Shown: positions 11,401 through 51,669 of the stretch, piece after piece
How positions within the stretch are numbered: the stretch's first letter is position 1
Layout of the letters: each line of letters begins with the position of its first letter
Origin: Terriglobia bacterium
Lineage (GTDB): Bacteria; Acidobacteriota; Terriglobia; JAIQFV01
Length of the DNA stretch: 64,000 nt
Assembly (NCBI GenBank): GCA_020073085.1
Contig: JAIQFV010000001.1
Span: forward strand, 62,001-126,000
Direction: 5' to 3'
Program-made: the position numbers and the translations under genes
The notes under the pieces: model-generated
What the model saw: only the letters and a program-made list of their open reading frames with translations
The model's database searches: none
Told to the model about the DNA's origin: nothing

Positions 11401-14038
11401 CGCCCCGATGAAAGCCGGGAAAACGGCCAGCGCCTATGTGTTGCGGACCGGCAAGCCGCTGCTCCTCACGGAAGAGGGTTTCCGCCACCTCGAGGAACAG
11501 GGAGAAGTGGATCTGTTCGGAACCCCCTGCCCTGCCTGGCTGGGCGTTCCGTTGAACACTCCTGCAGGAACCATCGGGGTGCTCGTGGTTCAACACTACC
11601 AGGATCCCCATGCCTATAACCAGAGAGACCTTGAATTTCTCGCCTCCGTGGGGAATCAGATCGCCCTCGCGATTGAACGCAAGCGCACTGAAGAAGCGCT
11701 TCGACAAAGCGAAGAACGGTACAGGGCTTTCGTGCGGCAAAGTTCTGAGGGGATCTGGCGATTTGAGGCAGAACCTCCCATCCCTCTCCATCTCTCTCTC
11801 GACGAGCAGATCGAGCTTTTCTATCAAAATGCCTATCTGGCGGAGTGCAATGATGTCATGGCGCAAATGTACGGCTTTCCCACCGCGCAGGAGATAGTTG
11901 GCGCTCGACTCTGTGATTTGCTCCCGAGGTCTGAAGCGCGGAATGTCGAAACCCTTCGACACTTCATCCGATCCCGCTACCGGTTGAACGAGGCGGAGAC
12001 CCTGGAACTCACCAAGGAGGGGGAACCCCGGAATTTCCTCAATAATCTTGTGGGAATCATCGAGCAGGGATCCCTGGTGCGCGCCTGGGGAACCCAGCGC
12101 GACATTACGGCCCAAAAGCAGGCGGAAGAAGCCCTGCGAGAGAGTGAAGAACGATATCGGCGGCTTGTGGAGCTTTCCCCTGAAGCCATTGTGGTTCACT
12201 GCGAAGGAATATTCGTTTTTGTGAACTCCGCCGCCATGCAGCTCTTCGGAGCCGCCCAACCAGAGGATCTTATTGGCACGCCGATCCTCGACCGGGTGCA
12301 CCCGGAACATCGAGTTGTCGTCGCGACGAGGATCGGAAAGTTGGTGGGATCGAAGGAGCCGGTTCCATTGATTGAAGAAAAGTTTCTGCGGCTCGATGGG
12401 TCCGTCATCGATGTCGAGGTCACCGCCATCCCGTTCGTCTACCGGAATAAACCGGCCGCGCAGGTTGCCATCCGGGACATCACCGCACGGAAACGCGCCG
12501 AGGAATCGGAACGAAGGCTGCTCCGGGCCGTGGAACAGACCGATGAAGTGATTTTCATGACCGGGCTTGACGGCACGATCTCCTATGTGAATCCCGCCTT
12601 TGAGAAGATCTATGGCTTCTCCTCGGTGGAGGCGATTGGCAAAACGCCCCGTATCATCAAAAGCGGTTTCCTGAGCCAACAATACTACGAGCAATTCTGG
12701 AAGACCCTTCTCTCGGGCAAGAGTATTCGGGGGGAAGTGACCAACCGGACGAAGGACGGCGAATTGGTGACGGTCGAGACTTCAGTGAACCCGGTGGTCA
12801 ATCCCGAGGGAACGATGATCGGTTTCATCTCGGTCCAGGAAGACGTGACCGAGCGGAAGCTGCTGGAGAATCAGCTCCGGCAGGCCCAGAAGATGGAAGC
12901 CGTAGGAAGACTGGCGGGCGGCGTCGCCCACGATTTCAATAACCTGCTGACCGCCATCGCCGGATACTCCGACTTGATGCTTATGCGTCTTCCCCTGGGC
13001 GATTCCCTTCGGCGCCACGCCGAGGAGATCAAGAAGGCCTCAGACCGGGCGGCGTCGCTGACCCAACAACTCCTGGCGTTCAGCCGCAAGCAGGTGTTAC
13101 AGCCCAAACTGCTCGATTTGAATTCAGTGGTCTCGGACATGGACAAGATGCTCCGCCGGCTGATCGGGGAGGACATCGAACTGGTGACCCTGCGCTCTCA
13201 CGACCTGGGAAAAACCAAGGCGGATCCGGGCCAGGTGGCGCAGGTTCTCATGAATCTGGCGGTCAATGCCCGCGACGCCATGCCCAAAGGCGGGAAACTG
13301 ATCATCGAAACCGCGAACGAGGATATCGATGAAGCCTACGCCAGCCGGAATCCGGGAATGCATGCGGGATCCTATGTGATGTTAGGCGTCAGTGATACCG
13401 GCAGCGGCATGGATCCTGACACACAGAAGCATCTGTTTGAACCCTTTTTTACGACGAAGGAGCTGGGCAAGGGGACCGGGCTCGGACTGTCGACCGTCTA
13501 TGGAATCGTCAAACAGAGCGGCGGCTATATCTGGGTCCATAGTGAGGTGGGAAAAGGGAGCGCATTCAAGGTCTACCTGCCGCGGCATGAGGAAGGCGGA
13601 AAGGCCTCTCAGATGAAAGCGGAGCAAGCGGCCCTGCTCCAGGGGACAGAGACCATCCTGCTGGTTGAGGACGAAGACGGGGTCCGCGACCTCGTTCGGG
13701 ATATCCTCCAGATGAACGGCTACACCGTCTTGGAAGCCTCGGCGGGAGAAGAAGCCCTCCAGCGCTGCAAGCAACACAACGATGTCATCCACCTGGTGCT
13801 GACCGATGTCGTGATGCCGTTGATGAGCGGCCGCGAACTGGCCGAGCGGATTGTTCCCCTCAAGCCCGGGATCAAAGTCCTTTACATGTCGGGCTACACG
13901 GATGACACCATCCTGCATCATGGCCCCCTGGGAGCAGATATGGCGTTCCTCCAAAAACCCTTTACGCCGGAAATCCTGGCTCGCAAGGTGCGCGAGGTGT
14001 TGGATGGAGGCGGTCGAGACTCGAAACCTAATATCTAG
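8465..14038 (+). CDS. Soluble multi-PAS/GAF hybrid sensor histidine kinase with C-terminal receiver
   Basis: Cytoplasmic sensor with no transmembrane segment. Domain order by residue: PAS 36-135, PAS 145-255, PAS 274-385, PAS 399-505, PAS 517-630, GAF 640-795, PAS 800-910, GAF 920-1075, PAS 1084-1215, PAS 1229-1345, PAS 1352-1465, HisKA with phospho-acceptor H1489 (GGVAHDFNN), HATPase with N-box N1601 and G-boxes DTGSGM and GTGLGL, then a receiver with D1781 (LTDVVMP). The many repeats of RESEERYR-type linkers show recent PAS duplication. The HisKA sequence belongs to the group whose kinases pass phosphate to an attached receiver. No dedicated output regulator is adjacent; the next gene is a secreted TonB-C protein. 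The ligands of the PAS domains (haem, flavin or none) cannot be told. Confidence 0.93.
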   Translation: MNKKPGGEKSAKPTKRKPARPSVSPRVGRTAVPPLQDRILVLDSQGKILESSPANPALPDRGAQKIIGRTLQELFAPAQADLFLGQIRRVLKERKPIPAEFSLQTGGQEAWFSATISPKSKESVIWVTRDISELKKAREAAQKAEQRYLSLFENSLIGVYQSTPDGRILGANPPLVRMLGYESLDELLKTDIEKNLYVDASVRRKNLETLKKKGRLAGAEFELRRKDGRRITVSEHAHTVTDGEGRILAYEGTLIDITARNRAQEAVVESERRFRIMADSAPVLMWISDARGGCTFFNQGWLDFTGRTLDQVLGDGWTADVHPDDLPQCWQTYQAALQVHQPFRMEYRLRRADGVYRWILDTGLPRFESDGSFQGYIGSGTDLTELKVATEALKHSEEKHRYLFENSPVGIYRSSLAEGTILDCNHAILKMFGVPDLKGGRTLDTYLNPGDRERMKNQILKKGVVENFETQLKRADGSPFWASISAKLREGEEVLEGVITDITEHKQAERALRESEDRYRDLVEHSHDLICTHDLEGKILSANEAALKLLGYSQTEIVGKNIRDFLPPEVQEEFEAFLAAIKSRGSVHGFMQAQTHSGERRIWEYQSTIRTEGVQTPVVRGMAHDITAQKRGERRLRKINECLLKFGADPLENINRLTAVCGELMGAASALYNRLHHGMLCSWGQWSTPPDFKPEDNPEGHICSDVIKQGHDEVTVVRHLDESPYAATDPNVRAFHLKTYVGRTVLVAGEPVGSLCVVYQKDYVPSEDEKRMMSVIASAIGVEEMRRQARQELHDANETLQALIEASPLAINSLDREGRVLLWNPAAEKLFGWTEQEVLGKVNPCIPPGGEAEFHQMLRRVIDGFAFTGLELQRLRKDGSLVDVTASAAPQRESGGNVKGGLGIFADNTERKRAERERQVIFQIIEGVNQTDNLDELLRLIHQSLSRIVQAENCFIALYSKEDDILEFPFFIDQYDSPPAPMKAGKTASAYVLRTGKPLLLTEEGFRHLEEQGEVDLFGTPCPAWLGVPLNTPAGTIGVLVVQHYQDPHAYNQRDLEFLASVGNQIALAIERKRTEEALRQSEERYRAFVRQSSEGIWRFEAEPPIPLHLSLDEQIELFYQNAYLAECNDVMAQMYGFPTAQEIVGARLCDLLPRSEARNVETLRHFIRSRYRLNEAETLELTKEGEPRNFLNNLVGIIEQGSLVRAWGTQRDITAQKQAEEALRESEERYRRLVELSPEAIVVHCEGIFVFVNSAAMQLFGAAQPEDLIGTPILDRVHPEHRVVVATRIGKLVGSKEPVPLIEEKFLRLDGSVIDVEVTAIPFVYRNKPAAQVAIRDITARKRAEESERRLLRAVEQTDEVIFMTGLDGTISYVNPAFEKIYGFSSVEAIGKTPRIIKSGFLSQQYYEQFWKTLLSGKSIRGEVTNRTKDGELVTVETSVNPVVNPEGTMIGFISVQEDVTERKLLENQLRQAQKMEAVGRLAGGVAHDFNNLLTAIAGYSDLMLMRLPLGDSLRRHAEEIKKASDRAASLTQQLLAFSRKQVLQPKLLDLNSVVSDMDKMLRRLIGEDIELVTLRSHDLGKTKADPGQVAQVLMNLAVNARDAMPKGGKLIIETANEDIDEAYASRNPGMHAGSYVMLGVSDTGSGMDPDTQKHLFEPFFTTKELGKGTGLGLSTVYGIVKQSGGYIWVHSEVGKGSAFKVYLPRHEEGGKASQMKAEQAALLQGTETILLVEDEDGVRDLVRDILQMNGYTVLEASAGEEALQRCKQHNDVIHLVLTDVVMPLMSGRELAERIVPLKPGIKVLYMSGYTDDTILHHGPLGADMAFLQKPFTPEILARKVREVLDGGGRDSKPNI

Positions 14039-18313: not shown

Positions 18314-19708
18314 ATGAAGATCAAAGAACTCAGGAAGATGTTGAAAGATGAGAATGCGCGGTGGACCCTGCCAACGGATATAGCCGATGAGACCGAGATG
18401 GAAGCGATTTCGCAGCCGTTCTCATTGGGCGGACTGCCCCCAGCGCCTGGTGCTCTGACGGCACGATTACCCCGAATGCGCAGAGCCGCTGAAGCCGCTT
18501 TCGCCCTGTGGCAGCCCAATACGCATCGTCTGACGCGGCCGACCGTCAAGGCCCTCCCGCAATCTTGGGATTGGCGAAATGTCCAGGGACATAACTGGGT
18601 CTCGTCCCCCAAGAATCAGGGCGGCTGTGGGTCCTGCGTCGCCTTCGGTGTGGCCGCCGCCCTGGAATCTCACCAGCGCATTGAGATGAGTCAAGCCAAC
18701 CTAGTTATAGACACCTCCGAGGCAAACTTATTTTTTGTCAACGAACGCCAGTGCCTCCCCGGCGAGCCAAGATACGGGTGGTCCATACCGCCGGCCCTCG
18801 ACTATTTGGTTGATCAAGGGTCCTGCCTTGAAGAGAACTACCCCTACCGGGACGTCGATCAGAACGCCGAATTAGTCTTGGGCACGGAGCGCACGTTGAA
18901 GATCACCGGATATGACTCCACGAGCCAGACCAGCCAGATGAAGCGGTGGCTGTGTGAGGATGGTCCGCTGGTCACGGGATTCACGGTCTATCAGGACTTC
19001 GATGTGTATTGGGGCGGAGGGGCGAACGGCGTGTACACTCATCACACTGGCAATGTGCGTGGCGGACACGTCGTCGGCGTGATCGGTTATGACGACACTC
19101 AGTCATGCTGGATCTGCAAGAATAGCTGGGGCCCGACGCGCGGAAATGATGGCTGTTTTCGAATCGGATACGGTCAATGCGGTATTGACGGCAGGATGTA
19201 CCTGATTCAGGACGTGTACGATGTCATTACCCGCGATGAGATCGCGTACAATCCGCGAACCCTGAGGATCGTTGATGAGGGGGCGAAAGGCTGGCTGCTC
19301 ACTGATGGTGTCAGCCGTATGAAGATGCTCGACAACAAGGAAGACGCCCGTAATGCCATGATGGTCGCTCGCAGATATACGCGACAAGGATTCGTGGGAC
19401 GCGACAACTCCAGACAGAATCGAATTGATTACATTACGGAGTACTGGGCTGGGAGCAGCGGATTACCGTACGAGCCACTTACCAAGGTCGATGCCATTCC
19501 ATACAATCCCACCAAAGTCGTCGCCGAGGATATTGATGCCGACGGCTGGCGGCTCAAGGAAGGGAACAACTGGATGCTGCTGGCTCACGATCTCAACGAT
19601 GCGCTGGCCGTCCTGCGAGTAGTGGAGCGCTACACAAAGATGTGTTTCATTGGAAGGAACAACCATCGCCCGAACAGGAAGTCCTACATCATGACCTATT
19701 GGGAGTGA
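18314..19708 (+). CDS. Papain-like (C1) cysteine protease with two C-terminal repeats
   Basis: C1A-type peptidase. Visible catalytic residues: oxyanion Q102, nucleophile C108 in QGGCGSCVAF, H252 in GGHVVGVIGYDD and N270 in KNSWG. A prodomain-like segment occupies about 1-80 and the mature domain starts near LPQSWDWR. No signal peptide is seen. After about residue 310 come two tandem repeats of some 75 residues, each starting YNP(R/T) and ending in (R/N)xDYITEYW or KSYIMTYW, with a shared GFVGRDNSRQNR/CFIGRNNHRPNR core; these may bind a partner or surface. Start ATG follows AAAGGAG. It lies 100 bp after an attC-like site, and GCCCAAC follows its stop by about 25 bp, so it could itself be a former cassette. 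It is upstream of a second protease system. Confidence 0.88.
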   Translation: MKIKELRKMLKDENARWTLPTDIADETEMEAISQPFSLGGLPPAPGALTARLPRMRRAAEAAFALWQPNTHRLTRPTVKALPQSWDWRNVQGHNWVSSPKNQGGCGSCVAFGVAAALESHQRIEMSQANLVIDTSEANLFFVNERQCLPGEPRYGWSIPPALDYLVDQGSCLEENYPYRDVDQNAELVLGTERTLKITGYDSTSQTSQMKRWLCEDGPLVTGFTVYQDFDVYWGGGANGVYTHHTGNVRGGHVVGVIGYDDTQSCWICKNSWGPTRGNDGCFRIGYGQCGIDGRMYLIQDVYDVITRDEIAYNPRTLRIVDEGAKGWLLTDGVSRMKMLDNKEDARNAMMVARRYTRQGFVGRDNSRQNRIDYITEYWAGSSGLPYEPLTKVDAIPYNPTKVVAEDIDADGWRLKEGNNWMLLAHDLNDALAVLRVVERYTKMCFIGRNNHRPNRKSYIMTYWE

Positions 19709-19953: not shown

Positions 19954-20084
19954 GAATCTTCTGACACGAATCTTCAGCACGTGTGCTTTGCAGGGATGTA
20001 AGTTGTCCAGTCTTCCTTCAGCAAGTCGCACGCGAGTGTGGTTTCACGAGTGACAAGCCGCAAGAGCTGTAGAGGAGGTTGCAT

Positions 20085-21896
20085 ATGACTACCGCCAGTC
20101 TTCCCATGGGAGCGTTCCCTGCACAGCAGGGTGTGAGCTTTCGGACCTGGGCCCCCTTCGCGAGCCGGGTCTATGTGGAAGGCGATTTCAATAGCTGGTC
20201 GAAAACTGCCACTGCACTCAAAAGCGAGGGAAGTGGGTACTGGTCGATAACTGTGATCAACGCAAAGGTGGCTGATGAATACAAATTTGTGGTCGCGAAC
20301 CGAGATACCGGAGAGGTTCTCGAGAAAAACGACCCGTATGCCCGTGAGGTTACGAACTCTGTGGGAAATAGCGTCGTGGCGGATCCGAACTTCAACTGGA
20401 CCGCCACGGGCTACGTGACTCCGCCCTGGAATGAGATGGTTGTCTACGAAGTGCACGTGGGATCGTTCACGGTCGATCAAAGCACCCCGGTCAAAAGAGG
20501 AACATTTCGCAGTCTCGCGACCAAGCTGCCCTATCTGCGAGACCTGGGGGTCAATGCCATCGAAGTGATGCCCTCCGGCGAGTTCCCAATGGACGTATCG
20601 TTGGGCTATAACGTGGCGTACCCGTTCGCGATTGAAAGCTCCTACGGAGGCCCCAACGGCTTTCGCCAGTTCATCGATGCAGCTCATCAATACGGGATCG
20701 CGGTCATTCTGGATGTGGTGTACAACCACTTCGGCCCCTCCGATCTGGACGGAGGCCTGCGCCGCTTTGATGGTTGGTCAGAGGACAACGGCGACGGGAT
20801 TTATTTCTACAACGATTGGCGTCGCGTGACCGAATGGGGCCCGCGCCCGGATTACGGTCGTCCCGAGGTGAGACAATACATCAAAGAGAACGCCCAACGT
20901 TGGTGCGAGACGCGGTACGTGGATGGATTGCGTTGGGACGCCACGAACACCATTCGCAACGTCTACGCCGACAACAATGATCCCGATCATGACCTGGCCG
21001 ATGGCTGGAGACTGATGCAGGAGATCAACGATTCCCTGGCGGCGCAGCCCCTGTGGAACATGAAAATCAGCATCGCTGAGGATATGAAGGACAATGAGTG
21101 GCTCACGAAACACACTCGCGATGGAGGAGCCGGTTTCGACTCGCAGTGGGATGCGTCCTTCGTCCATTCGGTCCGGCAATCCGTCATCACCGCACGCGAC
21201 GAAGACCGCGACATGAACAGTGTCGGTAATGCACTGATGCATCGTTATAACGGGGACGTTTTCGAAAGGGTCGTCTATTCGGAGTCCCATGACGAGGTCA
21301 TGAGCGGGAAAGCTCGCGTCCCCGAAGACATTTGGCCGGGCAATGCCGGAAGTTGGTACTCACAGAAGCGCTCCACCTTGGCGGCAACGTTGGTGCTCAC
21401 CGCACCGGGTATTCCGATGATCTTTCAAGGCCAGGAGTTTATGGAAGACGGGTGGTTTCAAGACAGCAAGCCGCTCGACTGGAGCAAGCAGTGGAAGTAT
21501 GCGGGCATCCTGAACCTCTATCGCGACCTGATACATCTGCGCCGCAACTGGTTCGACAACACCCGGGGGTTGCGCAGCCAATCGATCAACGTTTTCCACA
21601 TAAACAATTCGGACAAGCTCATTGCGTTCCACCGCTGGGGGAATGGCGGTTCGCACGATGACGTGATCGTGGTCGCAAATTTCGCCAATCGCTCGTATGA
21701 CTGTTATAACCTGGGTTTGCCACGCGAGGGTCTGTGGAGGGTGCGGTTCAACAGCGACTGGGGTGGCTACAGTGCGGATTTCGGAAATCATCCTAGCTAT
21801 GACATCACGGCTCGCCCCGGCTCCATGGACGGACTTCCGTACAACGGTGGTGTCTCTATTGGACCGTACACGGCGGTGATTCTTTCGCAGGGTTGA
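20085..21896 (+). CDS. GH13 alpha-glucan-active enzyme with CBM48-like N-domain
   Basis: Alpha-amylase-superfamily enzyme acting on alpha-1,4/1,6 glucan. N-terminal CBM48/E-set domain (about 1-90, FRTWAPFASRVYVEGDFNSW); (beta/alpha)8 barrel with VVYNHFG, nucleophile D285 in DGLRWDA, acid/base E332 in IAEDM and D403 in SHDEVMSG; C-terminal beta domain from about 500. At 603 residues it is shorter than GlgB (about 730) and near TreZ length; branching enzyme or trehalohydrolase-type activity are both possible. ATG 20085 has AGAGGAGG upstream. It is isolated between protease genes, with a second glucan enzyme (GlgX-like) at the window end. Confidence 0.88.
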   Translation: MTTASLPMGAFPAQQGVSFRTWAPFASRVYVEGDFNSWSKTATALKSEGSGYWSITVINAKVADEYKFVVANRDTGEVLEKNDPYAREVTNSVGNSVVADPNFNWTATGYVTPPWNEMVVYEVHVGSFTVDQSTPVKRGTFRSLATKLPYLRDLGVNAIEVMPSGEFPMDVSLGYNVAYPFAIESSYGGPNGFRQFIDAAHQYGIAVILDVVYNHFGPSDLDGGLRRFDGWSEDNGDGIYFYNDWRRVTEWGPRPDYGRPEVRQYIKENAQRWCETRYVDGLRWDATNTIRNVYADNNDPDHDLADGWRLMQEINDSLAAQPLWNMKISIAEDMKDNEWLTKHTRDGGAGFDSQWDASFVHSVRQSVITARDEDRDMNSVGNALMHRYNGDVFERVVYSESHDEVMSGKARVPEDIWPGNAGSWYSQKRSTLAATLVLTAPGIPMIFQGQEFMEDGWFQDSKPLDWSKQWKYAGILNLYRDLIHLRRNWFDNTRGLRSQSINVFHINNSDKLIAFHRWGNGGSHDDVIVVANFANRSYDCYNLGLPREGLWRVRFNSDWGGYSADFGNHPSYDITARPGSMDGLPYNGGVSIGPYTAVILSQG

Positions 21897-22558: not shown

Positions 22559-22831
22559 GTGTATGTAACGCTTCGGGTGCTGCATAAAGTTGCGCGGGCA
22601 CTACATCATCGACAACCATCGACCGCCGAGTCTGAAGAACTCATAACGGCTACTGAAGAACTCGGTGTCAAACTGGCAGCACTCCATCCCCACGTCGAGG
22701 ATTTGGAGTTGATGCGTTATTTTGCTGTCGAGGTCCCAAACCTGTCCGTCGCTGAGAGGGTGATCAAACGACTCCAGCAATGCAAGGCGATTGATGCAGC
22801 TTATGTCAAACCGCCGGATGAATTACCTTGA
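22559..22831 (+). CDS. Stand-alone propeptide/inhibitor-like protein (I9-like)
   Basis: A 90-residue protein with a GTG start after GGAG. Its C-terminal half (VEVPNLSVAERVIKRLQQ, then DAAYVKPPDELP) matches the prodomain of the subtilase encoded 36 bp downstream (KLRKSKFVTAAYVKPPAEP), and the DNA for AAYVKPP is almost identical in both. The pattern of a beta-alpha-beta fold ending in a cleavage-proximal peptide is that of subtilase propeptides (inhibitor I9), which act as chaperone and inhibitor. It may fold or restrain the neighbouring protease in trans. No signal peptide is seen. Confidence 0.65.
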   Translation: MYVTLRVLHKVARALHHRQPSTAESEELITATEELGVKLAALHPHVEDLELMRYFAVEVPNLSVAERVIKRLQQCKAIDAAYVKPPDELP

Positions 22832-22866
22832 GGCAAGGTTTCCCGGCAAACTGAGGAGGTAGTGTT

Positions 22867-24756
22867 ATGCCAAAACGGAAAAGAAAATCAGCTAAGAAAC
22901 AAGTGGCAGCGATCAAGTTCGAAACCGCAGGGCGGGAGCTGGTCGTCATCGCTCGAGCGGAGGCTGGATTGCGCGCAAGCGCTGCGGGACTGGCCTCGGT
23001 GGCCGAACTGGATGTCAGTCCCCTGGCCCAGATCCTGGCCAGCGAGGGAGCAACCATGCGACCGCTGTTTGGCGTGAGTGAGGATCGGATTGCTCACGAG
23101 ATCATGGCGATGCCATCGGCGGCCTATGCGGAAATCCCCGACCTCTCGGTCTATTACCGGGTTGACGCACCCGAGTCAAAGCTGGATCGTCTAGCTGCGA
23201 AGCTTAGAAAGTCGAAGTTTGTTACCGCAGCTTATGTCAAGCCGCCGGCAGAGCCGGCCCAATTTCAACTGTCCATAGCGGCTGCACCGGAAGAGGCACC
23301 CCCCAGCAGTCCTGATTTCACCTCCCGCCAGCAGTATCTGGATGCGGCGCCAGTGGGCATTGACGCCCAGTATGCCTGGACTCAGCCGGGTGGCGGAGGG
23401 GCAGGGGTTAAAATCATTGATGTAGAGGGTGCCTGGAATTTCTCGCATGAGGACTTGTTGTTGAATCAGGGCGGAGTCGTCGGGGGCACCCCAACCACGG
23501 ACCCTCACTGGCGAAACCACGGCACTGCAGTGGCCGGGGAGTTTAGTGGAGACCGGAATACGTTTGGCATCACAGGGATTTGTCCGGACGCCAATTTGCG
23601 GGCGATATCCGTCTTTGGGGGCTCGGCATGGGGATCAGCCCCTGCCATCCGCCAGGCCGCTACCATGCTCGGTCCGGGCGACATCATCCTGATCGAACTC
23701 CATCGTGGCGGACCGCGTGCCACGGGGAGCGGGCAGTTCGGTTATATAGCAATCGAGTGGTGGCCCGACGATTTCGCGGCAATACAGTTTGCGACGAGCA
23801 AAGGTGTGATTGTCGTGGAAGCTGCCGGGAATGGTGAGCAGAACCTGGATGATCCGGTCTACAATAATCCAGCCGCTGGTTTTCCGTCCGATTGGACCAA
23901 CCCGTTTAACCGTGCCAACCGCGATTCCGGAGCGATTCTGGCCGGGGCCGGCAATCCTCCCGTTGGGACGCATGGCCGCAATACGGAACCAATTTACGGC
24001 CAGCCCTATGTTGACCGGGCACGCTGTTCTTTCTCGAATTACGGCACCGCCGTTGACGTCCAGGGCTGGGGCTGGGAAGTGACTTCCACCGGCTATGGCG
24101 ACCTGCAAGGCGGCTCGAACGAGAACCTTTACTACACAGACACCTTCAGCGGCACCTCCAGCGCGTCGCCGATCATCGTGGGCACGCTGGGTTGCGTTCA
24201 GGGCTGGCGCCGGGCAACCGGGGCGACCCCGTGGACCCCTGCCCAGGCTCGGAATTATCTCCGCACCACGGGTTCACCCCAACAGGCTGCCCCGAGCCGC
24301 CCCGTGAGCCAACGCGTCGGAAATCGACCGGACTTGCGACAGCTGATCAAGCCAGTGATCATCTGCGCACCTGCCCCGAAGCCCTGCGTTCCTGCTCCGA
24401 TCATCTGCAAGGTTGCCCCGAAGCCCTGCCCTCCTGCTCCGATCATCTGCAAGGTTGCCCCGAAGCCCTGCCCTCCTGCTCCGATCATCTGCAAGCTCGG
24501 TCCGAAGCCCTGCCCAGTCGCGCCGAAATTGTGCCCTCCGGCCCCGATAGTCTGCGCAGCTGGCCCGAAGTCATGTCCAACTGCACCGAAGCTTATCTGT
24601 CCACCTGCACCCAAGCTTGTGTGTCCTCCTGCACCATTGGCTTCCTGTCCGCCCGCCCCCAAGGGAGGCTGTATAGGAGGACCGATGATCGTGGACCCGA
24701 TTGACATCAAGGACGTTCGAGAGATCAAAAAAGGCCCCCGCAAGAGGAGGAAGTAG
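22867..24756 (+). CDS. Subtilisin-like (S8) protease with Cys/Pro repeat tail
   Basis: Serine protease with catalytic D185 (KIIDVEGAW), H218 (RNHGTAVAGEFSG) and S431 (SGTSSASP). The prodomain (about 1-145) has no signal peptide; the catalytic domain covers about 150-480. The last 130 residues form a Cys/Pro tail with about 15 cysteines in units such as IICKVAPKPCPPAP, coming from a 42-bp DNA repeat, then a basic end KKGPRKRRK. Subtilases usually lack such a tail. Start ATG has GAGGAGG upstream. The next gene is a radical SAM/SPASM enzyme and the preceding one a propeptide-like protein, so the tail may be a substrate for thioether or other radical modification; this is inference. Structural disulfides or metal binding are alternatives. 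Confidence 0.9.
   Translation: MPKRKRKSAKKQVAAIKFETAGRELVVIARAEAGLRASAAGLASVAELDVSPLAQILASEGATMRPLFGVSEDRIAHEIMAMPSAAYAEIPDLSVYYRVDAPESKLDRLAAKLRKSKFVTAAYVKPPAEPAQFQLSIAAAPEEAPPSSPDFTSRQQYLDAAPVGIDAQYAWTQPGGGGAGVKIIDVEGAWNFSHEDLLLNQGGVVGGTPTTDPHWRNHGTAVAGEFSGDRNTFGITGICPDANLRAISVFGGSAWGSAPAIRQAATMLGPGDIILIELHRGGPRATGSGQFGYIAIEWWPDDFAAIQFATSKGVIVVEAAGNGEQNLDDPVYNNPAAGFPSDWTNPFNRANRDSGAILAGAGNPPVGTHGRNTEPIYGQPYVDRARCSFSNYGTAVDVQGWGWEVTSTGYGDLQGGSNENLYYTDTFSGTSSASPIIVGTLGCVQGWRRATGATPWTPAQARNYLRTTGSPQQAAPSRPVSQRVGNRPDLRQLIKPVIICAPAPKPCVPAPIICKVAPKPCPPAPIICKVAPKPCPPAPIICKLGPKPCPVAPKLCPPAPIVCAAGPKSCPTAPKLICPPAPKLVCPPAPLASCPPAPKGGCIGGPMIVDPIDIKDVREIKKGPRKRRK
24361..24520 (+). repeat. 42-bp coding tandem repeat in the subtilase tail
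   Basis: Units start at 24361, 24403 and 24445 (the last two identical over 42 bp), followed by a partial diverged unit from 24487. Each codes for a 14-residue Cys-Pro unit. The absence of spacers and the intact frame show it is protein repeat expansion, not CRISPR. Confidence 0.9.
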
Positions 24757-24771
24757 GCAAAGTAGGACTCA

Positions 24772-24815
24772 GATTGCGGGACTCCATCACGATTCAGCAC
24801 CGGGGTCCCGCAATC
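24772..24815 (+). promoter_or_regulatory. Stable hairpin between subtilase and radical SAM genes
   Basis: GATTGCGGGACTCC (24772-24785) pairs with GGGGTCCCGCAATC (24802-24815), a 14-bp stem with one G-U pair and a 16-nt loop, in the 71-bp spacer. It ends 12 bases before ATG 24828. No T-run follows, so it may be an mRNA processing or attenuation element lowering maturase expression relative to the upstream gene. Confidence 0.6.
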
Positions 24816-24827
24816 GGCAGGCAAATT

Positions 24828-26132
24828 ATGACCACCCATTCGAACGCAGTTCTCTATTTTCCCCTGAAGTTAAGCGCTCAAGGACCGGATTGCACCTTTT
24901 ACAATCCGGCTACCGGTCGTGTGCACAAGGTCAGTCAGTCAGCCGGTCGAGTGTTGAACCTCTGCGATGGGGAACGGACCTGGGATGAGATGCTGGCAGA
25001 ACTCAGTCAGGCATCTGGAACTCTGCCCGCGACGGTGACCCGTCATGTGCAACCTTTCCTGAATCGATTAGCTGCCGAGGGCGCCATTTGGACACGGCCG
25101 CAACGGATGCTCTGGTCGTCGCTACCCCCACCGACGTCGGTGTTCTGGAACATCACCGGGAAGTGTAATTTGTGTTGCCGACATTGCGCCGTCAGTTCCG
25201 GAATGAAACGGCCTGATGAGCTGAGCCTGGCCGAGTGCCGTCGAGCGATCGATGACATGGCAGCTTTCGGGGTTCAGGACATCGCTTTGAGCGGCGGCGA
25301 ACCCCTTATTCGTCCGGACTGGTTCCAGATTGCGACCCATGCCCGATCCCGCGGCCTCTTGGTTTCGGTGTCCACGAACGGGACACTTGTCACTGAAGCA
25401 GTGGCCCGGAAGATCGCTGGACTCGGTTCGGACGTTCAAGTCAGTCTCGACGGTGCCACTCCCGAGGTCCACGACAGTCTCCGCCGGATCACCGGCGCCT
25501 GGCAACGGGCCGTGCGTGGCGTGCAGAATTTTGTCAACGCCGGCGTCCCAGTGACTATCGGCACGACGGTGACCACCGCCAACATCCACCAGATTCCCGC
25601 GCTCTGCGATCTGGCGCGAAATCTTGGGGCCGAGAGGTACCGGATTATTCCGTTTGTGCCATTTGGGCGCGGTGGCGCCTGGCGAAAGCTCGAGGTGAAA
25701 CCTCGAGCCATGCAACGCCTCACCGAGTACCTGCGCCAACGCCGGCTCCAGAATGACATCGACATCGTTGAAATGGAATTCGAATGCACATTCGATCCAC
25801 CGCCGCTCCAACCGGCAGATCCACAAAGCGGCCTCGGTTGTGGCGGGGCACAAACCTACATTACTATTACAGAAACGGGTGATGTCCTGCCTTGCCATTT
25901 TTTCAGTGGCGTCGAAGCCGATAATATCCTGAAGCATGACCTGGCCTGGATCTGGGAGCACTCCAGGTTTCTCAATTATTTCCGGAGCATGACCCTTGCC
26001 GATCTCACCGGTTCCTGTCAGCAATGTGACTGGTTGGCCGGGTGTCGAGGGAGTTGCCGGGCGGCCAATTTCGCCCACCTCAATCTCTTCCGTGGCAACT
26101 GTCACTGCTGGTTGAACACCAGGCCCACGTAA
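24828..26132 (+). CDS. Radical SAM/SPASM maturase with PqqD-like N-domain
   Basis: 434-residue radical S-adenosylmethionine enzyme. About 15-90 is a PqqD-like peptide-recognition domain (YNPATGRVHKVSQSAGRVLN, then GERTWDEM). The SAM-cluster cysteines are C113, C117 and C120 (CNLCCRHC, the CX3CX2C pattern), followed by the SAM-binding motif LSGGEP and STNGTLV. The C-terminal SPASM region has the cysteine series GCGG, LPCHFF, CQQC, GCRGSC and NCHC for auxiliary 4Fe-4S clusters. This architecture is that of peptide maturases (PqqE-, sactipeptide- and mycofactocin-type). It is directly downstream of the Cys/Pro-tailed subtilase. ATG 24828 is chosen over an in-frame TTG at 24774, which lies inside a hairpin. 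The substrate is unknown. Confidence 0.9.
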   Translation: MTTHSNAVLYFPLKLSAQGPDCTFYNPATGRVHKVSQSAGRVLNLCDGERTWDEMLAELSQASGTLPATVTRHVQPFLNRLAAEGAIWTRPQRMLWSSLPPPTSVFWNITGKCNLCCRHCAVSSGMKRPDELSLAECRRAIDDMAAFGVQDIALSGGEPLIRPDWFQIATHARSRGLLVSVSTNGTLVTEAVARKIAGLGSDVQVSLDGATPEVHDSLRRITGAWQRAVRGVQNFVNAGVPVTIGTTVTTANIHQIPALCDLARNLGAERYRIIPFVPFGRGGAWRKLEVKPRAMQRLTEYLRQRRLQNDIDIVEMEFECTFDPPPLQPADPQSGLGCGGAQTYITITETGDVLPCHFFSGVEADNILKHDLAWIWEHSRFLNYFRSMTLADLTGSCQQCDWLAGCRGSCRAANFAHLNLFRGNCHCWLNTRPT

Positions 26133-26464
26133 TGGGACAAGACCATTCAGGTCATGTTTCCACGGTCCTAAATCAGAGGCGATGCCACGAGAGGATCTGA
26201 TGGTACGGACGGCAGACCTGCACTCTTGGCAAAAATTTCTGATCCTTGGCACGGAGAAAGACGGGGTTCTCTGGTAGATAATTTCACCGACTAAAGAATA
26301 AGAGGCGAACAGATGGAGGACGAGGAACCCCCGGTTTCCTTACCCTCCCACGGAATTTGCCGCGATACTGGACGCCCCGACCAAGCAACTCTTGACCCGA
26401 CGACAAGCAGCACCCCCAAAGAGGCCCCTTCCGCATTTATGAACGACGCATGAAAGGAGAAACC
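26133..26464. other. Intergenic region, no gene seen
   Basis: About 330 bp without a supported gene. AAAGGAG just before 26465 is the ribosome site of the following membrane protein. Confidence 0.4.
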
Positions 26465-27568
26465 ATGTATCAATCCTTGAGTAATACCATCGATGTCGTA
26501 CTCGGGTTTGTGACGATCGTTTTGGTGCTCAGCCTGATCATCCAGTCTGTACAAAACCTCATCAAGACAGTGCTTCGCATGAAATCAAGGCAGGCTGAGC
26601 AATCATTGAAGATGCTTTTCGATTATGTTTTGACCCACGACGAGACGAAGTATGCAAAGCTCCGCCATGCTTCACCAATACTGAGTGCCGCAGCCAGCAT
26701 AGTTGGCCGCGAAGAAGGGACAAGCCCTGGCGATCAATTAATCAAGTTTGTAAAGGGCGAACTGCTGGAGATGGGCAGAAAGTCTTTCTGGGGGAACGCG
26801 ATGATGGATTCTTTTACGAAAGGGGACCTCATGCAGATCCTGAGTTCCCTCGAAACGGACGACGCCAAGCTCATGGGCATCGATGTTGAGGCTCTTAAGA
26901 AGGCATTGCCCGGTGCCCCCAGCTTCGAGGAAAGTTTGAAAAAAACGATCGATGAAAAGGTTAAAGAGTTGGAAGGCTGGTATGACACCGTGATGCCTGG
27001 AATCGCCGAGCGGCACGTGCGAGGCATGAGATGGATGGCGATGGGTCTCAGTGCGATCGTAGTTGTGATGCTAAATGCCAACGCGATTAGAATCTACGAT
27101 TACGTTAAGTCCGATCCCGGGGTGCAACAAACGCTCAGCAAGTATGCTGAAGACCAGCTCAGCCAGTTGGAGGCCAGCAAGGCCAAGCAAAATCCAGCGG
27201 AATTGACAGCGCCGCCAGATGTGTCAAGGACTCAATCCAACGCCACATTGACCCCCTCTGGGCCCGGTTCCCCAGCACCCCCTTCTGCAACACCATCCAG
27301 CGGCACTGTTACGACCAGGGATTTGAAGCCGGAGATTGACGCGATTCGGCAGAATTATGCGGCCTATCGAAGTTTCGGCTTGAGTCCCTTCAAGTGCGAA
27401 AAATGTTTCGATGACACGAAGAGCGCATCGAAGACCCTCGCCGGTTGGGTGATTATGACGTTGCTCCTGAGTCTAGGCGCACCGTTTTGGGAAGATGCTT
27501 TGGGGTCACTCTTTGGACTGAAGAATGCACTACGCAAGAAGGACACGACGAAATCAGACAATGGTTAA
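26465..27568 (+). CDS. Conserved-type membrane protein, function unknown
   Basis: 367 residues with three predicted transmembrane segments: about 7-32 (VVLGFVTIVLVLSLIIQS), about 188-206 (MAMGLSAIVVVMLNA) and about 327-348 (GWVIMTLLLSLGAPFWEDAL). Between the second and third lies a Pro/Ser/Thr-rich linker (about 255-285). The LGAPFW motif after a helix recurs in many unannotated bacterial membrane proteins, but I cannot name a family with function. Start ATG 26465 follows AAAGGAG; an ATG 15 bp upstream is less well placed. It is the last gene before the tRNA-bounded island. Confidence 0.7.
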   Translation: MYQSLSNTIDVVLGFVTIVLVLSLIIQSVQNLIKTVLRMKSRQAEQSLKMLFDYVLTHDETKYAKLRHASPILSAAASIVGREEGTSPGDQLIKFVKGELLEMGRKSFWGNAMMDSFTKGDLMQILSSLETDDAKLMGIDVEALKKALPGAPSFEESLKKTIDEKVKELEGWYDTVMPGIAERHVRGMRWMAMGLSAIVVVMLNANAIRIYDYVKSDPGVQQTLSKYAEDQLSQLEASKAKQNPAELTAPPDVSRTQSNATLTPSGPGSPAPPSATPSSGTVTTRDLKPEIDAIRQNYAAYRSFGLSPFKCEKCFDDTKSASKTLAGWVIMTLLLSLGAPFWEDALGSLFGLKNALRKKDTTKSDNG

Positions 27569-28539: not shown

Positions 28540-29250
28540 TCATCCGTCCAACACAAGATTCAGAACGACCACCAAAAACGTATATCCAATCAGAACTTGC
28601 GCAACGACCAACATGCGAATCGCCGTCGCATTCGGCAGGATGTCACCATAGCCTACGGTCGTCTGCGTGATCGCACTGAAGTACAAGAAGTCCAGCAGGC
28701 CCCACGCTTGGCTTGGGTCATCGCCGACCAGTTTGGCCCGTTGATTCCAATAGTCGCGTCTTGCAGTCCAAATAGCCAGCATCTGATCGAGCCAGTTAGT
28801 GAAGTATGACTGCGACAACTCATCGTCCTGAGGTCCTTCGACGTCACAGAGAATGCAGCCGTCTGGGTCTGTAACCGTGAGAGAAAGACGGTCTTGAGAT
28901 TCACCCGACCCGCTGGAGATTGTGTGTGTGTGCGTCTTGACCTGATGGCCGCTTGCAAGGGTTCCAAACCTAGTTGCAAGCGCCCCGGACGTGACGGCGT
29001 CGCGGACGATCTTCATGGCGTCGATCTCGCGATTGTGTACTTTCACAGCGATGTCAGCCCTGTCCAGCACGTTCTTAAGCTGGGCCGCAGCGATGTTAGC
29101 AGCGAACTGAAACCGGTCCTGCCGGGCACGATAAAGCCAGTAGTACCAAAACCCGAAAGCGATGATGACCGCAAGGTACAGCCCGAATGTGGCAACCAAC
29201 AGTTGCCACCTCGGTGAGTCGGCCCAAACGCTGCGAATAAGTTCTATCAT
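28540..29250 (-). CDS. Two-transmembrane potassium-channel-like protein (cassette gene)
   Basis: 236 residues: TM1 about 17-40, a soluble extracytoplasmic-loop insert (about 45-185), pore helix, selectivity filter T197-TVGYGD-203 and TM2 about 213-234. The TVGYGD filter is the K+ channel signature (Ion_trans_2 family). The large loop between TM1 and the pore is unusual for a bacterial two-TM channel and may be a sensor domain. There is no cytoplasmic RCK/TrkA domain. It is the last cassette in the array, followed by an attC-like site at 28440-28511. ATG 29250 lies 27 bp after the preceding attC core. Confidence 0.85.
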   Translation of the reverse strand: MIELIRSVWADSPRWQLLVATFGLYLAVIIAFGFWYYWLYRARQDRFQFAANIAAAQLKNVLDRADIAVKVHNREIDAMKIVRDAVTSGALATRFGTLASGHQVKTHTHTISSGSGESQDRLSLTVTDPDGCILCDVEGPQDDELSQSYFTNWLDQMLAIWTARRDYWNQRAKLVGDDPSQAWGLLDFLYFSAITQTTVGYGDILPNATAIRMLVVAQVLIGYTFLVVVLNLVLDG

Positions 29251-29276
29251 CCGATTTGGCGATAGCCTTCAGCGCC

Positions 29277-29343
29277 ATCTAAAGGTCGCGTTCAGCTGCC
29301 CGCGAGCGCAGCGAAGCGGGTCAGCAACAACGCGTTGTTAGCT
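29277..29343 (-). other. attC-like site after the DUF4062 cassette
   Basis: Minus strand: AGCTAAC (29337-29343, overlapping the TAA stop of the gene before it), AACGCGTTGTTGCTGACCCGC, a GCGCTCGC-type loop, GCGGGCAGCTGAACGCG, then TTTAGAT (29277-29283). The arms pair (CCCGC/GCGGG, CGCG) in the usual attC layout, and R' matches xTTRRRY. Length 67 bp. Confidence 0.7.
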
Positions 29344-30603
29344 GGCTCCCCGCTTATCGATTGACTCCACCATCTGTGCGGCAGTGAATTCGATTCTCTC
29401 CACGACCAGATTGACTTCAAGCTTATGTCGAAGGGGCTCAGAGAGAGTATCCGCGTAGACGGTGGCATGCAGGACCGCCTTGCAGCTGTCCGGCGCACCA
29501 AATAGCACTTCGGGCACGGGGCTCAGTTCCCGCTGAGGCTGCAATGCAGGGATCTCAATGTGAGTGCGGGCGGTCTTGCCAACGAGAGCTAGGAGGTCGC
29601 TGGGTGACGACATTGGGGGGGCCCCATATCCGTAGAGAGCCGGAGAGATTATCATCGCTGGGAATGCAGTTCCGACGCGATCCTTAGGGACCAGAATAAT
29701 GTCCATGTCTGACATCAGGGCAACATCGATATAGACGTCACGGGCGCCAATGCTCCCAGCGTTCTTGAGCCAAAACCTGAGCGGGCTAAGGAGAAAGTGC
29801 TGAGCGTAGTAAGTTGTTACTTGGCGGTAGTAGTCCTTGTTGACAATGTCCGTGAAGAGGGACACGCTGAAAGGGGAAGTGGTGCCCGCGGACGGCGGCG
29901 CGATGCCTTCGGCGGCTGCCTTCTTCCCGGTGTAGTCGGGCAAATTCTCGAAGTCCTTCACGACCATTAGCTTAGTCTGGAGATTTAGAATCGATTCACA
30001 GGGCTCGCCCGTCTTTGGGTCTGCAAATAGCAGCTGGATGTCGGCCCCCAACTTGGTTGGCGCGCCCCGTGTCTCCGGTGATTCGCCCTCTTGGGCGAGG
30101 AGCATCCGCAATTGGATCTCGATCTGACGGGCAAGCTTGTCGCGGAACTCTACCTGTGATTTGAATGATTCGATGAGAGCCTTCGGATAGGTCCTCTTCT
30201 TGAACTCGCGCAGCTTGGTGATCTGGTCCAAGTCGATCTGTTCTGGATCTTGCTTTACCTGGGAAAAGTAGAGCATGATCGGCTTGCCCTGGGAGGCGAC
30301 CCGGTCGATCTCCTCCAGCGTGCCGCTATCCGCCATCCCTGTGGGGCTTCCGACGCGCGTCCAGAAGATCCCAATCAAAAGGTCGCATGAGTCCACAATT
30401 TGTCGGTTCAGCGCGTCCTGTGGCCGGGTGCCGAACTCGGGCGCCGAGTGAGTTTCCCAACGCAGCGGGAGCAAAACAATCTCCCTCTCGGCGGATTGGA
30501 GGTCGTTCCATTCCTGGATTACGCGCACGGCAACTTCGCGCTCTTCGACTACATCGCTTGGCGACGCTATGAGAATCCTGAAGACCCGGGCCGCGTAGGA
30601 CAT
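29338..30603 (-). CDS. DUF4062 domain protein (cassette gene)
   Basis: 421-residue protein with an N-terminal DUF4062 domain (about 4-90): FRILIASPSDVVEEREVAVR, EFGTRPQDALNRQIVDSCD and LLIGIFWTRVGSPTG are its typical blocks. The domain resembles TIR-like alpha/beta folds and is widespread in accessory and cassette genes, often beside defence functions. The C-terminal 250 residues are unassigned. ATG 30603 follows TTGAGGT; an upstream in-frame start at 30660 would extend over the attC core. The stop codon lies in the next attC. A defence role is only a guess. Confidence 0.82.
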   Translation of the reverse strand: MSYAARVFRILIASPSDVVEEREVAVRVIQEWNDLQSAEREIVLLPLRWETHSAPEFGTRPQDALNRQIVDSCDLLIGIFWTRVGSPTGMADSGTLEEIDRVASQGKPIMLYFSQVKQDPEQIDLDQITKLREFKKRTYPKALIESFKSQVEFRDKLARQIEIQLRMLLAQEGESPETRGAPTKLGADIQLLFADPKTGEPCESILNLQTKLMVVKDFENLPDYTGKKAAAEGIAPPSAGTTSPFSVSLFTDIVNKDYYRQVTTYYAQHFLLSPLRFWLKNAGSIGARDVYIDVALMSDMDIILVPKDRVGTAFPAMIISPALYGYGAPPMSSPSDLLALVGKTARTHIEIPALQPQRELSPVPEVLFGAPDSCKAVLHATVYADTLSEPLRHKLEVNLVVERIEFTAAQMVESIDKRGAS

Positions 30604-30618
30604 GTTTACCTCAAGTTC

Positions 30619-30692
30619 AGCTAACGCGTGCGCTTCAGCCGCGGCGCTTCGCGAATGCACTAAGCGCCGCCGGCTGCAAGCGCTGGTTAAAC
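30619..30692 (-). other. attC-like site
   Basis: Minus strand: GTTTAAC (30686-30692, containing the stop of gene 30687-31421), CAGCGCTTGCAGCC, a Cys-less GC-rich loop, GGCTGAAGCGC, then GTTAGCT (30619-30625). GGCTG[C]AAGCGC against GGCTG-AAGCGC gives one unpaired base, the extrahelical-base hallmark. Length 74 bp. Confidence 0.78.
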
Positions 30693-31421
30693 AGCCGACC
30701 CACCGATGACTAGTAGCGCGGCCACAAGTTGTGGCCCCACCTCTCGAACAAAACTAACTTTAGCTTGGCTGACATCTTCCGCGTGGATAGCCGCGGACGA
30801 CACCGCATACACCTCCCGCATTGCGTGGTCGAGGGCCGGCTCAATGACCTCGGCTTGAGTCAGGAGCCTAGACAGCTGAATGCCCCCCATACGGCGTGGT
30901 GGGACCTCAAGCTGACGCTCGCGCGCAAGCCGGCGCAGTTCACGTTCGATGGCGTACCGAACCCCGAACAAGAATGCCACATCGTCGGAGACCTGGAGAT
31001 CTGTTGGGATTGGTGGCGGCTGACGAACTCCGTGAGCGGCCAGCGCTTCCGCGACGGCGGACTTTATCCGAGTCTCAAGTCCCGGCAGCTGAGAATCCGG
31101 GGGAGGAGCTGGAATACTGATTTGAGAACTGAACGTCGTTCTAATATCGACGGCGTTGCGAATTTCCGCGCGAACCGACTGGATATCCGACCTGACATCT
31201 TCCCTGAGTTTTTGAACTTGCTGCTTGAACTTAAAGCCAAGGAACTCCACCTCTTGAAAAACGGGCGCCAGCAGAAGACCCACCCAGACAAGGAACACCA
31301 CGACGTCCGCTGGCCCGGCGTGCCCTGCCGATAGATCCTGGTACCTGGCAACCAAGTAAACAGTGATCGTCGCAGTCACGGCCAGCCACCACACTACCTT
31401 GAACCAGTTTGGCAGTTTCAT
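30687..31421 (-). CDS. Membrane protein with coiled coil and C-terminal helical domain (cassette gene)
   Basis: 244 residues. Two N-terminal transmembrane helices (about 8-27 and 38-58), a coiled coil (FKQQVQKLREDVRSDIQSVR, about 66-90), a Pro-rich linker, and a C-terminal helical domain (about 140-244) whose AAIHAEDVSQAKVSFV resembles the HEPN-like/DUF4145-type AIHG motif. ATG follows AAAGGAAC. The gene is flanked on both sides by attC-like sites and ends inside one. Unknown function; a membrane-tethered sensor or RNase-like HEPN role is speculative. Confidence 0.75.
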   Translation of the reverse strand: MKLPNWFKVVWWLAVTATITVYLVARYQDLSAGHAGPADVVVFLVWVGLLLAPVFQEVEFLGFKFKQQVQKLREDVRSDIQSVRAEIRNAVDIRTTFSSQISIPAPPPDSQLPGLETRIKSAVAEALAAHGVRQPPPIPTDLQVSDDVAFLFGVRYAIERELRRLARERQLEVPPRRMGGIQLSRLLTQAEVIEPALDHAMREVYAVSSAAIHAEDVSQAKVSFVREVGPQLVAALLVIGGSAV

Positions 31422-31444
31422 CTCAGCTAGGTGTTCCTTTGGTT

Positions 31445-31507
31445 GTCTAACGGTCGTGTCGAGCCGCGCCCCGCTTCGAGCTCGCCTTCTCCAACTCTCT
31501 GTTAGAC
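31445..31507 (-). other. attC site with perfect core pair
   Basis: Minus strand: GTCTAAC at 31501-31507 and GTTAGAC at 31445-31451 are exact complements and both fit the R''/R' consensus. Inner arms GAGAAGGCGAGCTCGAAG and CGCGGCTCGACACGACC are less regular. Length 63 bp, between two cassette genes. This is the clearest core pair of the array. Confidence 0.75.
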
Positions 31508-31514
31508 CGCCTGT

Positions 31515-31976
31515 TCACTTCACAAAGATCTGGACGACGATGCCAATTACGGTCGACACCACGACGCCAGCTCCGAAGAGGAGGTAGTCCCGCATCGCGC
31601 TTCGCCTCTCCCCAGGCGCCACGAGCTTGGCAAAATGCTCGGCGACCGCCAACGGGGTCTTCTCAAGAGTCTCTATCCGCTGCTTCAGCTCCCTTTCGCG
31701 ACCTTCCATAGCATTCAGGTCGGTTTCCAGCATCATGACGGCCTCGGCCCTGTCCTTGGACACCTGCGCCATTTCGGCCAAGACACCATCGACTTCACGC
31801 GATGCCTCGGTGAGATTTGCCGTGAGTTGCGCGAGGCGCTCTGAAAAGGTGGCCTGTTGAGTTGGGCGCTTGAGAAGCGCGGGAATGATCTTCCGGAATA
31901 GCTCCGTCGATGCCACGCCACCCGCCGCGAGGCTCGCGGCCGCGGTCAAGATGGAGATCATGACTTCCATGCTCAT
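31515..31976 (-). CDS. Coiled-coil protein with N- and C-terminal membrane segments (cassette gene)
   Basis: 153 residues from ATG 31976 (an upstream GTG at 31985 is an alternative). A hydrophobic N-terminal stretch (VMISILTAAASLAAGGVA), a long heptad-rich coiled coil (about 40-115, with LTANLTEASREVDGVLAEMA) and a C-terminal transmembrane helix (YLLFGAGVVVSTVIGIVVQIF). It resembles small membrane coiled-coil proteins often found in integron arrays; no function known. It starts about 26 bp after the preceding attC core and ends 8 bp before the next. Confidence 0.72.
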   Translation of the reverse strand: MSMEVMISILTAAASLAAGGVASTELFRKIIPALLKRPTQQATFSERLAQLTANLTEASREVDGVLAEMAQVSKDRAEAVMMLETDLNAMEGRERELKQRIETLEKTPLAVAEHFAKLVAPGERRSAMRDYLLFGAGVVVSTVIGIVVQIFVK

Positions 31977-32001
31977 GGTGCACACTCCCGCGGTGTTGTC
32001 G

Positions 32002-50601: not shown

Positions 50602-51669
50602 TCATTTCACGGGACTCGGAGGACTCAGGTACCGGGCCAAAAATCGGTACACCTCTGCTCGTGATTCCTTGGCCGGCCGCGTGTCGATGCGGTTAAAAAA
50701 GTGGCCGCCGGGAGCGTTCTCATAGATCTTGTACTCAAATTTTTTGTTGGCGGCTTTCAAGGCCTGGATCAGATGTTCGACCTCGAGCACGTTGACGTCC
50801 TCATCGCTGGTGTTGGTATGGATGAGCAAGGGAGTCTGCAATTTCTCTGCATTCCAGGCGGGAGAGCGGCGGCGGTATTCGTTGACATTATCTTCGGCCG
50901 TTTTCCCCAGGTGATACGGCGCGGAATACTGATCCCGGTAGCCCTGGCCTTTGTATCCCATGCGGGCCACGAGGTCGCTGACCGGCACCCCCGCGTAAGC
51001 GACCTTGAAATCCTGGGGGTGATCGAAAATCGTCATCAAGGTGATCATCCCGCCGTGACTCCATCCGAGAATCCCCACCCGCTGCGGATCGATATTGGCG
51101 TAGTTCTCCAGCATCCATTGCTTTCCCGCGAAGACGTCTTCATTTTCCAGGCCTCCGTAATCGATGAGCCTCCAGAACTCGCGCCCGTATCCTGTGCTGC
51201 CCCGATAATCGGGGGCAATGACCGCATAGCCTTGCTGGACCAGTTCGCGCACAATGTGTGCCGCTCCGGAACCGAAATCAGCGTGCACCCCGCCATGAAC
51301 AAGAACCAGCAACGGGAGCTTCCCCGTGGATGCATATTTCTTCGGAATGAAGGTGTACGCGGTGATCACCACCGGGTTCCCGGCGCCCTGAGCAGTCGGA
51401 TTGGGAATCACGCGCGGCGGAGGCCCGGTATACCGCACCATATCGACCTCGGCGATGTCCTCCAGCCGGTGGAACCACATGAGATTGTCGATCTGCTTGG
51501 CCAGGGACTGGGCCAAAAAGTCGAGCGTTTCCTCGGCTGAACGGGCACGCGGCTGCACGGGGTCGGGGGACGGCAGGGGTGTGCGGTCCTGGGAAAAGGT
51601 CACCCAGGTGAGTCCCAAAAATCCAATTGCCAGCACTGCAAGACACTTCATGGAAAACCGGAATTTCAT
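50602..51669 (-). CDS. Secreted S9 family (prolyl oligopeptidase-like) peptidase/esterase
   Basis: 355 residues with signal peptide MKFRFSMKCLAVLAIGFLGL after AGAGGT at ATG 51669. Alpha/beta hydrolase core: HGGVHADFGSGA, APDYRGSTGYGREFW, nucleophile Ser in GWSHGGMI, acid Asp in NTSDEDVN and His in PGGHFF. This is the peptidase half of S9 enzymes without the beta-propeller, as seen in many dipeptidyl- and acyl-peptidase relatives. Monocistronic between spacers; downstream (toward 50501) lies the osmolyte ABC operon. Substrate not predictable. Confidence 0.85.
   Translation of the reverse strand: MKFRFSMKCLAVLAIGFLGLTWVTFSQDRTPLPSPDPVQPRARSAEETLDFLAQSLAKQIDNLMWFHRLEDIAEVDMVRYTGPPPRVIPNPTAQGAGNPVVITAYTFIPKKYASTGKLPLLVLVHGGVHADFGSGAAHIVRELVQQGYAVIAPDYRGSTGYGREFWRLIDYGGLENEDVFAGKQWMLENYANIDPQRVGILGWSHGGMITLMTIFDHPQDFKVAYAGVPVSDLVARMGYKGQGYRDQYSAPYHLGKTAEDNVNEYRRRSPAWNAEKLQTPLLIHTNTSDEDVNVLEVEHLIQALKAANKKFEYKIYENAPGGHFFNRIDTRPAKESRAEVYRFLARYLSPPSPVK

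Follow-up and report, generated by a model that had tools for sequence, protein, structure and literature searches.

A Cys/Pro-rich subtilase tail as the candidate substrate of an adjoining PqqD-domain radical SAM/SPASM enzyme

A 64,000-nucleotide stretch of DNA from a Terriglobia bacterium, analyzed here as a whole and called the window, encodes three plus-strand genes in a row: a 90-amino-acid (aa) open reading frame (ORF), a subtilase with a Cys/Pro-rich tail, and a radical S-adenosylmethionine (SAM) enzyme with PqqD and SPASM domains. The gene content of its genome points to the phylum Acidobacteriota. Our analysis of the gene sequences and their association supports the subtilase tail as the likely substrate of the adjoining radical SAM enzyme, a reading to which we assign a probability of roughly 0.7. 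The evidence that carries it is the regularity of the tail, the domain makeup of the enzyme, and the recurrence of both on an unrelated subtilase in a second phylum.

The window protease is a member of the subtilases (MEROPS S8), scoring 63.5 bits against the Pfam model Peptidase_S8 (cut-off, 21.8). Its cysteines are distributed very unevenly, with exactly 15 in the last 134 residues and 3 in the 495-aa body. Every tail cysteine (15/15) lies within a C-x-x-[AG]-P unit, and IICKVAPKPCPPAP is present twice exactly. A DNA pattern spanning two units matched 10 times in the window (expected, 0.02), and none of 100 shuffles reached this number. Across the bacterium's own genome, this two-unit pattern again gave 10 matches in the tail and only 3 elsewhere (control, 1).

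All three domains of the neighboring enzyme scored over their cut-offs (PqqD, 33.5 bits with a cut-off of 23.4; Radical_SAM, 96.6 bits; SPASM, 32.8 bits). The C113xxxC117xxC120 motif and GGEP at 156 are conserved in the orthologue described below, which also keeps all of the SPASM cysteines (338, 356, 397, 400, 406, 410, and 427). Because of its fused PqqD domain and full SPASM set, we read the enzyme as probably peptide modifying, and among PDB matches that take in the PqqD region, the sactisynthase SkfB ranks best. Scores against NCBIfam models were 199 bits for AhbD, 192 for NirJ2, 184 for MftC, and 161 for StsB; the enzyme thus falls outside both the StsB/streptosactin-type maturases (NF045574, 161 versus 625 bits) and the AhbD heme b synthases (TIGR04545, 199 versus 500 bits). 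Other paralogous enzymes in the same genome (L011, L013-L016) are distant. The general features of radical-SAM-modified ribosomally synthesized and posttranslationally modified peptides (RiPPs) are present in the CX3CX2C core, the SPASM cysteines, and the PqqD domain, a RiPP recognition element (RRE), and the enzyme is encoded beside the candidate substrate sequence in 2/2 loci, the only two known. A short dedicated precursor with leader and core is absent; instead, the candidate core makes up the C-terminal end of a protease of 629 aa. ATG 24828 is the most likely start of the enzyme, not TTG 24774, since its N terminus then aligns with that of the orthologue and TTG 24774 lies inside a hairpin stem.

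Searching 294 Planctomycetota genomes with the enzyme and with the subtilase deprived of its tail, we found one full-length orthologue of the enzyme (41% identity, E 1.1e-109; genome G1117), in which the PqqD domain scored 27.6 bits. The gene directly upstream in this locus (L256) encodes a subtilase ending in ...TCPRAPTIICPRAPTICKRAPIVCARAPFCLRAPIDACVRAPIDVCARAPYVCARTPIITCTRAPIDGCLAGP..., an independent hit because the tail was absent from the query. All 11 cysteines of this second tail obey C-x-x-[AGT]-P, and with those of the window tail, 26/26 cysteines fit the motif. The arrays of both loci close with GC[IL][AG]GP and have PID shortly after; the last window unit is GCIGGP, and the PID-containing segment that follows is in outline common to the Planctomycetota tail. 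Differences between units at the Cys, +3, and +4 positions were mostly synonymous (synonymous to nonsynonymous, 141:36 in the window and 91:26 in L256), whereas those at -1, +1, and +2 mostly changed the amino acid (36:234 and 44:109, respectively). In both tails, these substitution patterns indicate purifying selection at Cys, +3, and +4, the three positions that are kept.

The two tailed subtilases are not close relatives. Their S8 sequences have almost no BLASTP similarity to each other, and in a 52-row subtilase tree, each grouped with its own untailed relatives in a separate clade; a tree constrained to place the two together was rejected by the approximately unbiased (AU) test (p-AU 3e-42). 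The enzymes, in contrast, are sisters with a support of 99 in the Shimodaira-Hasegawa-like approximate likelihood ratio test (SH-aLRT; tree of 32 rows). Since the enzymes are sisters but the subtilases are not, tail and enzyme appear to travel together on different proteases, and by these comparisons they are joined to two different proteases in different phyla. Relatives of the window subtilase were found on plasmids of Nostoc commune (73%) and Haloferax (61%) and in a Planctomycetota genome (58%), and neither the tail nor any radical SAM gene is present at these relatives within the loci read. An untailed Calothrix subtilase (42%) is also among the closer relatives of the tailed proteins. 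Counting untailed relatives of either subtilase, the enzyme was encoded in 0/12 loci having >8 kb of DNA. Among 52 distinct S8 ORFs, the window and L256 subtilases were the only two in which a span of 80 residues contained more than two C-x-x-[AGT]-P units. The original prediction had inferred the substrate link and proposed asking whether homologues of the enzyme stand beside Cys/Pro-tailed subtilases. This holds for the one full-length orthologue found, whose neighboring subtilase is of a different lineage, and this association, with the 0/12 count for untailed relatives, lends the link good support.

The layout of the window genes is given in Table 1. All of the elements that the original prediction had described were found where it placed them, including a tail with about 15 cysteines (exactly 15 by count), a radical SAM/SPASM enzyme with a PqqD domain directly after the subtilase, and an intergenic hairpin. 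With 14 Watson-Crick pairs, this hairpin exceeds all other such stems in the window, and its fold has a z of -2.46, equaled by 1/200 shuffles. The second locus has a hairpin of 13 pairs and unrelated sequence (L256:8680-8714; z -3.1) at the same position, within a gap between subtilase and enzyme genes that measures 67 to 71 nucleotides in the two loci. A role of the window hairpin as an intrinsic terminator is not supported, as it has no T-run. The propeptide-like gene predicted ahead of the pair is also present, encoding a product similar to the N-terminal region of the following subtilase (37% over 49 aa, E 5e-7), but its membership in the enzyme's system did not hold. We rejected it as a component because an untailed relative (L236) likewise has a propeptide-like gene (E 1e-8) upstream, which indicates that it is part of the protease lineage and not specific to the tail and enzyme. 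In a relative on a Paenibacillus plasmid (L044, 7591-9089), a separate gene directly ahead of the subtilase likewise encodes the propeptide-like region.

Table 1. Positions of the genes, domains, and other features in the window
Feature	Position	Strand	Remarks
Small gene, 90 aa, GTG start	22559..22831	+	AAGGAG shortly upstream; C-terminal end AAYVKPPDELP
Subtilase, 629 aa	22867..24756	+	N-terminal propeptide-like region, catalytic domain, Cys/Pro tail; no evident signal peptide
Subtilase catalytic region	23299..24351	+	D185, H218, N322, S431 in expected motifs
Subtilase tail, 134 aa, 15 Cys, 38 Pro	24352..24756	+	
Array of 15 C-x-x-[AG]-P units	24364..24684	+	Spacing 7 (first 11 units), then 8
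Hairpin, no T-run	24770..24817	+	In gap between subtilase and enzyme
PqqD-domain radical SAM/SPASM enzyme, 434 aa from ATG	24828..26132	+	
PqqD (peptide-recognition) domain	24903..25088	+	
Radical SAM core domain	25149..25610	+	
SPASM auxiliary-cluster domain	25839..26030	+	

These findings suggest a model in which the subtilase and the enzyme, both lacking an evident export signal, would be synthesized in the cytoplasm. The PqqD domain would bind the tailed protease, with the C-terminal GC[IL][AG]GP...PID segment common to both loci as a possible contact site, and the SPASM enzyme would proceed along the array, which it probably modifies. The chemistry is a more tentative matter: by analogy with known thioether peptides, each Cys sulfur may be linked to the alpha-carbon of the small residue at +3 (Ala, Gly, or Thr), although we hold such i to i+3 S-Calpha rings to be somewhat short of an even chance. 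The product would be a chain of four-residue rings with Pro after each, up to 15 rings in the window and 11 in L256. The hairpin after the protease gene could ensure that more of the tailed protein is made than of the enzyme. Once finished, the tail might stay as a rigid, protease-resistant appendage or be cut off by its carrier; release in cis by the protease itself seems rather unlikely. We tentatively propose that tail and enzyme could constitute a transferable module placing a polythioether chain (10 to 15 consecutive four-residue rings) on otherwise ordinary proteases, with the protease acting as substrate, carrier, and possibly releaser.

Several observations weigh against a ring-forming modification of the tail. 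The pair of tail and enzyme has only two instances, and in the second locus, unit spacing is irregular (6 to 8) and an insertion sequence with a transposase gene splits the subtilase gene (its two pieces were searched separately, and the gene was not mended). Lys and Arg occur in the units, which would be unusual for a compact ring peptide. For all of the NCBIfam maturase models listed, the enzyme scores well under the cut-off, and heme enzymes are among its nearest models; a single-sequence structure model of it is too poor for use (predicted local distance difference test [pLDDT] of 40), and no exporter gene was recognized immediately next to the window genes. An enzyme acting on the tail with other chemistry could form a ranthipeptide-like beta- or gamma-carbon thioether or a link to the residue before the Cys or to Lys/Pro, or it could catalyze epimerization or Cys oxidation. 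Related SPASM enzymes catalyze many reactions, and the hidden Markov model (HMM) scores single out no sactisynthase among StsB, MftC, NirJ2, and AhbD. However, Gly, which has no beta carbon, occupies +3 in 3/15 window units and 2/11 L256 units and so rules out a general S-Cbeta link there, and positions +1 and +2 of the window tail are too variable for a single acceptor type. We consider other chemistry on the tail rather unlikely.

Explanations in which the enzyme does not act on the tail are less probable still. The tail may be a metal-, disulfide-, or surface-binding appendage, with the radical SAM enzyme acting elsewhere; Cys/Pro-rich ORFs exist without a radical SAM gene nearby, as in a Rhodopirellula Cys-rich ORF (L079), and modification of the tail is itself a prediction. 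This reading is improbable considering that the same tail motif and an orthologous enzyme occur on two subtilase lineages in two phyla and that both are absent from the other relatives examined; furthermore, no other candidate peptide precursor was recognized between or beside the genes. The enzyme could also be a heme-type or other small-molecule radical SAM enzyme resembling AhbD or NirJ that lies beside a protease by chance, as these families supply its top NCBIfam matches. Both scores are far below the cut-offs (500), the PqqD domain is fused at the N terminus of both orthologues, and the pair recurs on a different protease, all of which make this very unlikely. Finally, the protease and enzyme genes, adjacent and with similar gaps in both loci, might have moved once as a block, after which the protease diverged and the association persisted as inherited linkage rather than function. 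We give this almost no credence, since the subtilases fall in different clades, each with closer untailed relatives (Nostoc plasmid and Calothrix), and their joint grouping was rejected. Inherited linkage of one block thus fails to account for the pattern, which is explained by a functional tie between the tail and the enzyme.

Further instances were sought in samples of genomes, and the negative results are accordingly partial. No orthologue of the enzyme was found in 396 genomes of the phylum and 250 of the class related to the window's genome, and nothing was found in Cyanobacteria (292 genomes) or Myxococcota (261 genomes) at the thresholds used; few candidates were scored per genome in these four runs, which makes the absences soft. 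In the class of the second genome, the orthologue was present in 1/75 genomes. A plasmid search with the enzyme returned distant relatives only and no orthologue, and the tail peptide had no match in plasmids and phages. A peptide-pattern scan for close relatives of the enzyme found none in genome_contigs or viral_contigs. The heptad C-x-x-x-P DNA pattern mostly hit simple-sequence DNA and no subtilase in genome_contigs, among the matches listed, and in viral_contigs; one locus among those listed (L123) contains a distant radical SAM match with no such tail on a subtilase. In searches of the open-access literature, no paper was found to describe a subtilase tail linked to a radical SAM enzyme, which is weak evidence of novelty as subscription papers lie mostly outside it.

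By analogy, streptosactin appears to be the closest chemical precedent for the C-x-x-[AGT] unit. Its S-Calpha bonds run from Cys to +3 (Cys31-Gly34) and are reported as four-residue rings (PMC8172795, PMC13361665). Like the window enzyme, its maturase GggB (StsB) is a SPASM radical SAM enzyme, and its consecutive, un-nested rings and Cys-to-+3 bond fit the motif. In contrast, streptosactin is a 14-residue peptide with two rings from a short precursor rather than a candidate 15-unit tail on a 629-aa protease, and the window enzyme lies far below the cut-off of the StsB model (161 versus 625 bits). The nearest system logic is found in quinohemoprotein amine dehydrogenase, in which the thioether-forming radical SAM enzyme QhpD is encoded with a subtilisin-like protease, QhpE; QhpD forms Cys thioethers in a protein, and QhpE acts once, “in a suicidal manner” (PMC7876137). 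QhpD acts on a third protein, QhpC, whose acceptors are Asp/Glu residues, whereas the array of cysteines described here belongs to the protease itself and has no conserved Asp/Glu acceptors. We recognized no QhpC-like gene near the window subtilase and enzyme, although no QhpC model was run. RumMC (ruminococcin C), AlbA (subtilosin), and SkfB (sporulation killing factor [SKF]) share the combination of peptide-recognition, radical SAM, and SPASM/twitch domains, but their systems have short antibiotic precursors, mostly hairpin ring topology, and no protease fusion. In borosins, the peptide that undergoes modification forms the C-terminal tail of an enzyme. The borosin carrier is the modifying methyltransferase itself; here, the carrier is a protease that a separate enzyme would modify.

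Short peptides are almost the only substrates that radical SAM/SPASM enzymes with recognition domains are known to modify. If an active protease does bear the substrate of such an enzyme as its tail, the boundary between enzyme and RiPP precursor would disappear, and the products of radical SAM modification would here be a class of enzymes instead of peptides. An array with as many as 15 rings in succession would greatly exceed the 1 to 4 links of the sactipeptides covered in the reviews consulted, and tail and enzyme could be a modular tag for attachment to other proteins. The two-gene unit is small, and the tail motif gives a clear residue-level prediction.

Other subtilases and their surroundings also showed unusual features. 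Three neighboring subtilases in the window's own genome (L002, L003, and L004; contig C20, ~50997-63178) have runs of DQSTVAFL / NQSTVALL repeats inserted between the catalytic Asp and His motifs, and another (L001; C1:530604-531533) has a C-terminal Trp/Asn-rich repeat run (GNVLWSSGNMLWDSGNVLWSNG...). Untailed relatives of the second subtilase on plasmids of Rhizobium leguminosarum (L263) and Mesorhizobium (L265) lie among purine/deazapurine-like biosynthesis genes (purB, folE, queC/queE; beta-RFA-P synthase, purH) resembling a nucleoside natural-product cluster with a protease. A secreted-metalloprotease-like gene stands just behind the second system (L256:10500-11645), and other proteases are likewise near the first. 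Just upstream of the window genes and on the same strand are a papain-family protease (18314-19708) and a GlgB-like branching enzyme (20079-21896), both lacking an obvious signal peptide. The enzyme gene is followed on the same strand by a gene for a 372-aa protein (26450-27568) that appears to have membrane segments and matches no family. On the minus strand, 28540-31985 encodes an ion-channel-like protein, two membrane proteins, and a DUF4062-like protein that matches the PADLOC candidate PDC-S60 (100 bits); this cluster may be a defense locus. A very large sensor kinase of 1857 aa with many PAS domains as well as GAF, histidine kinase, and receiver domains is encoded at 8465-14038.

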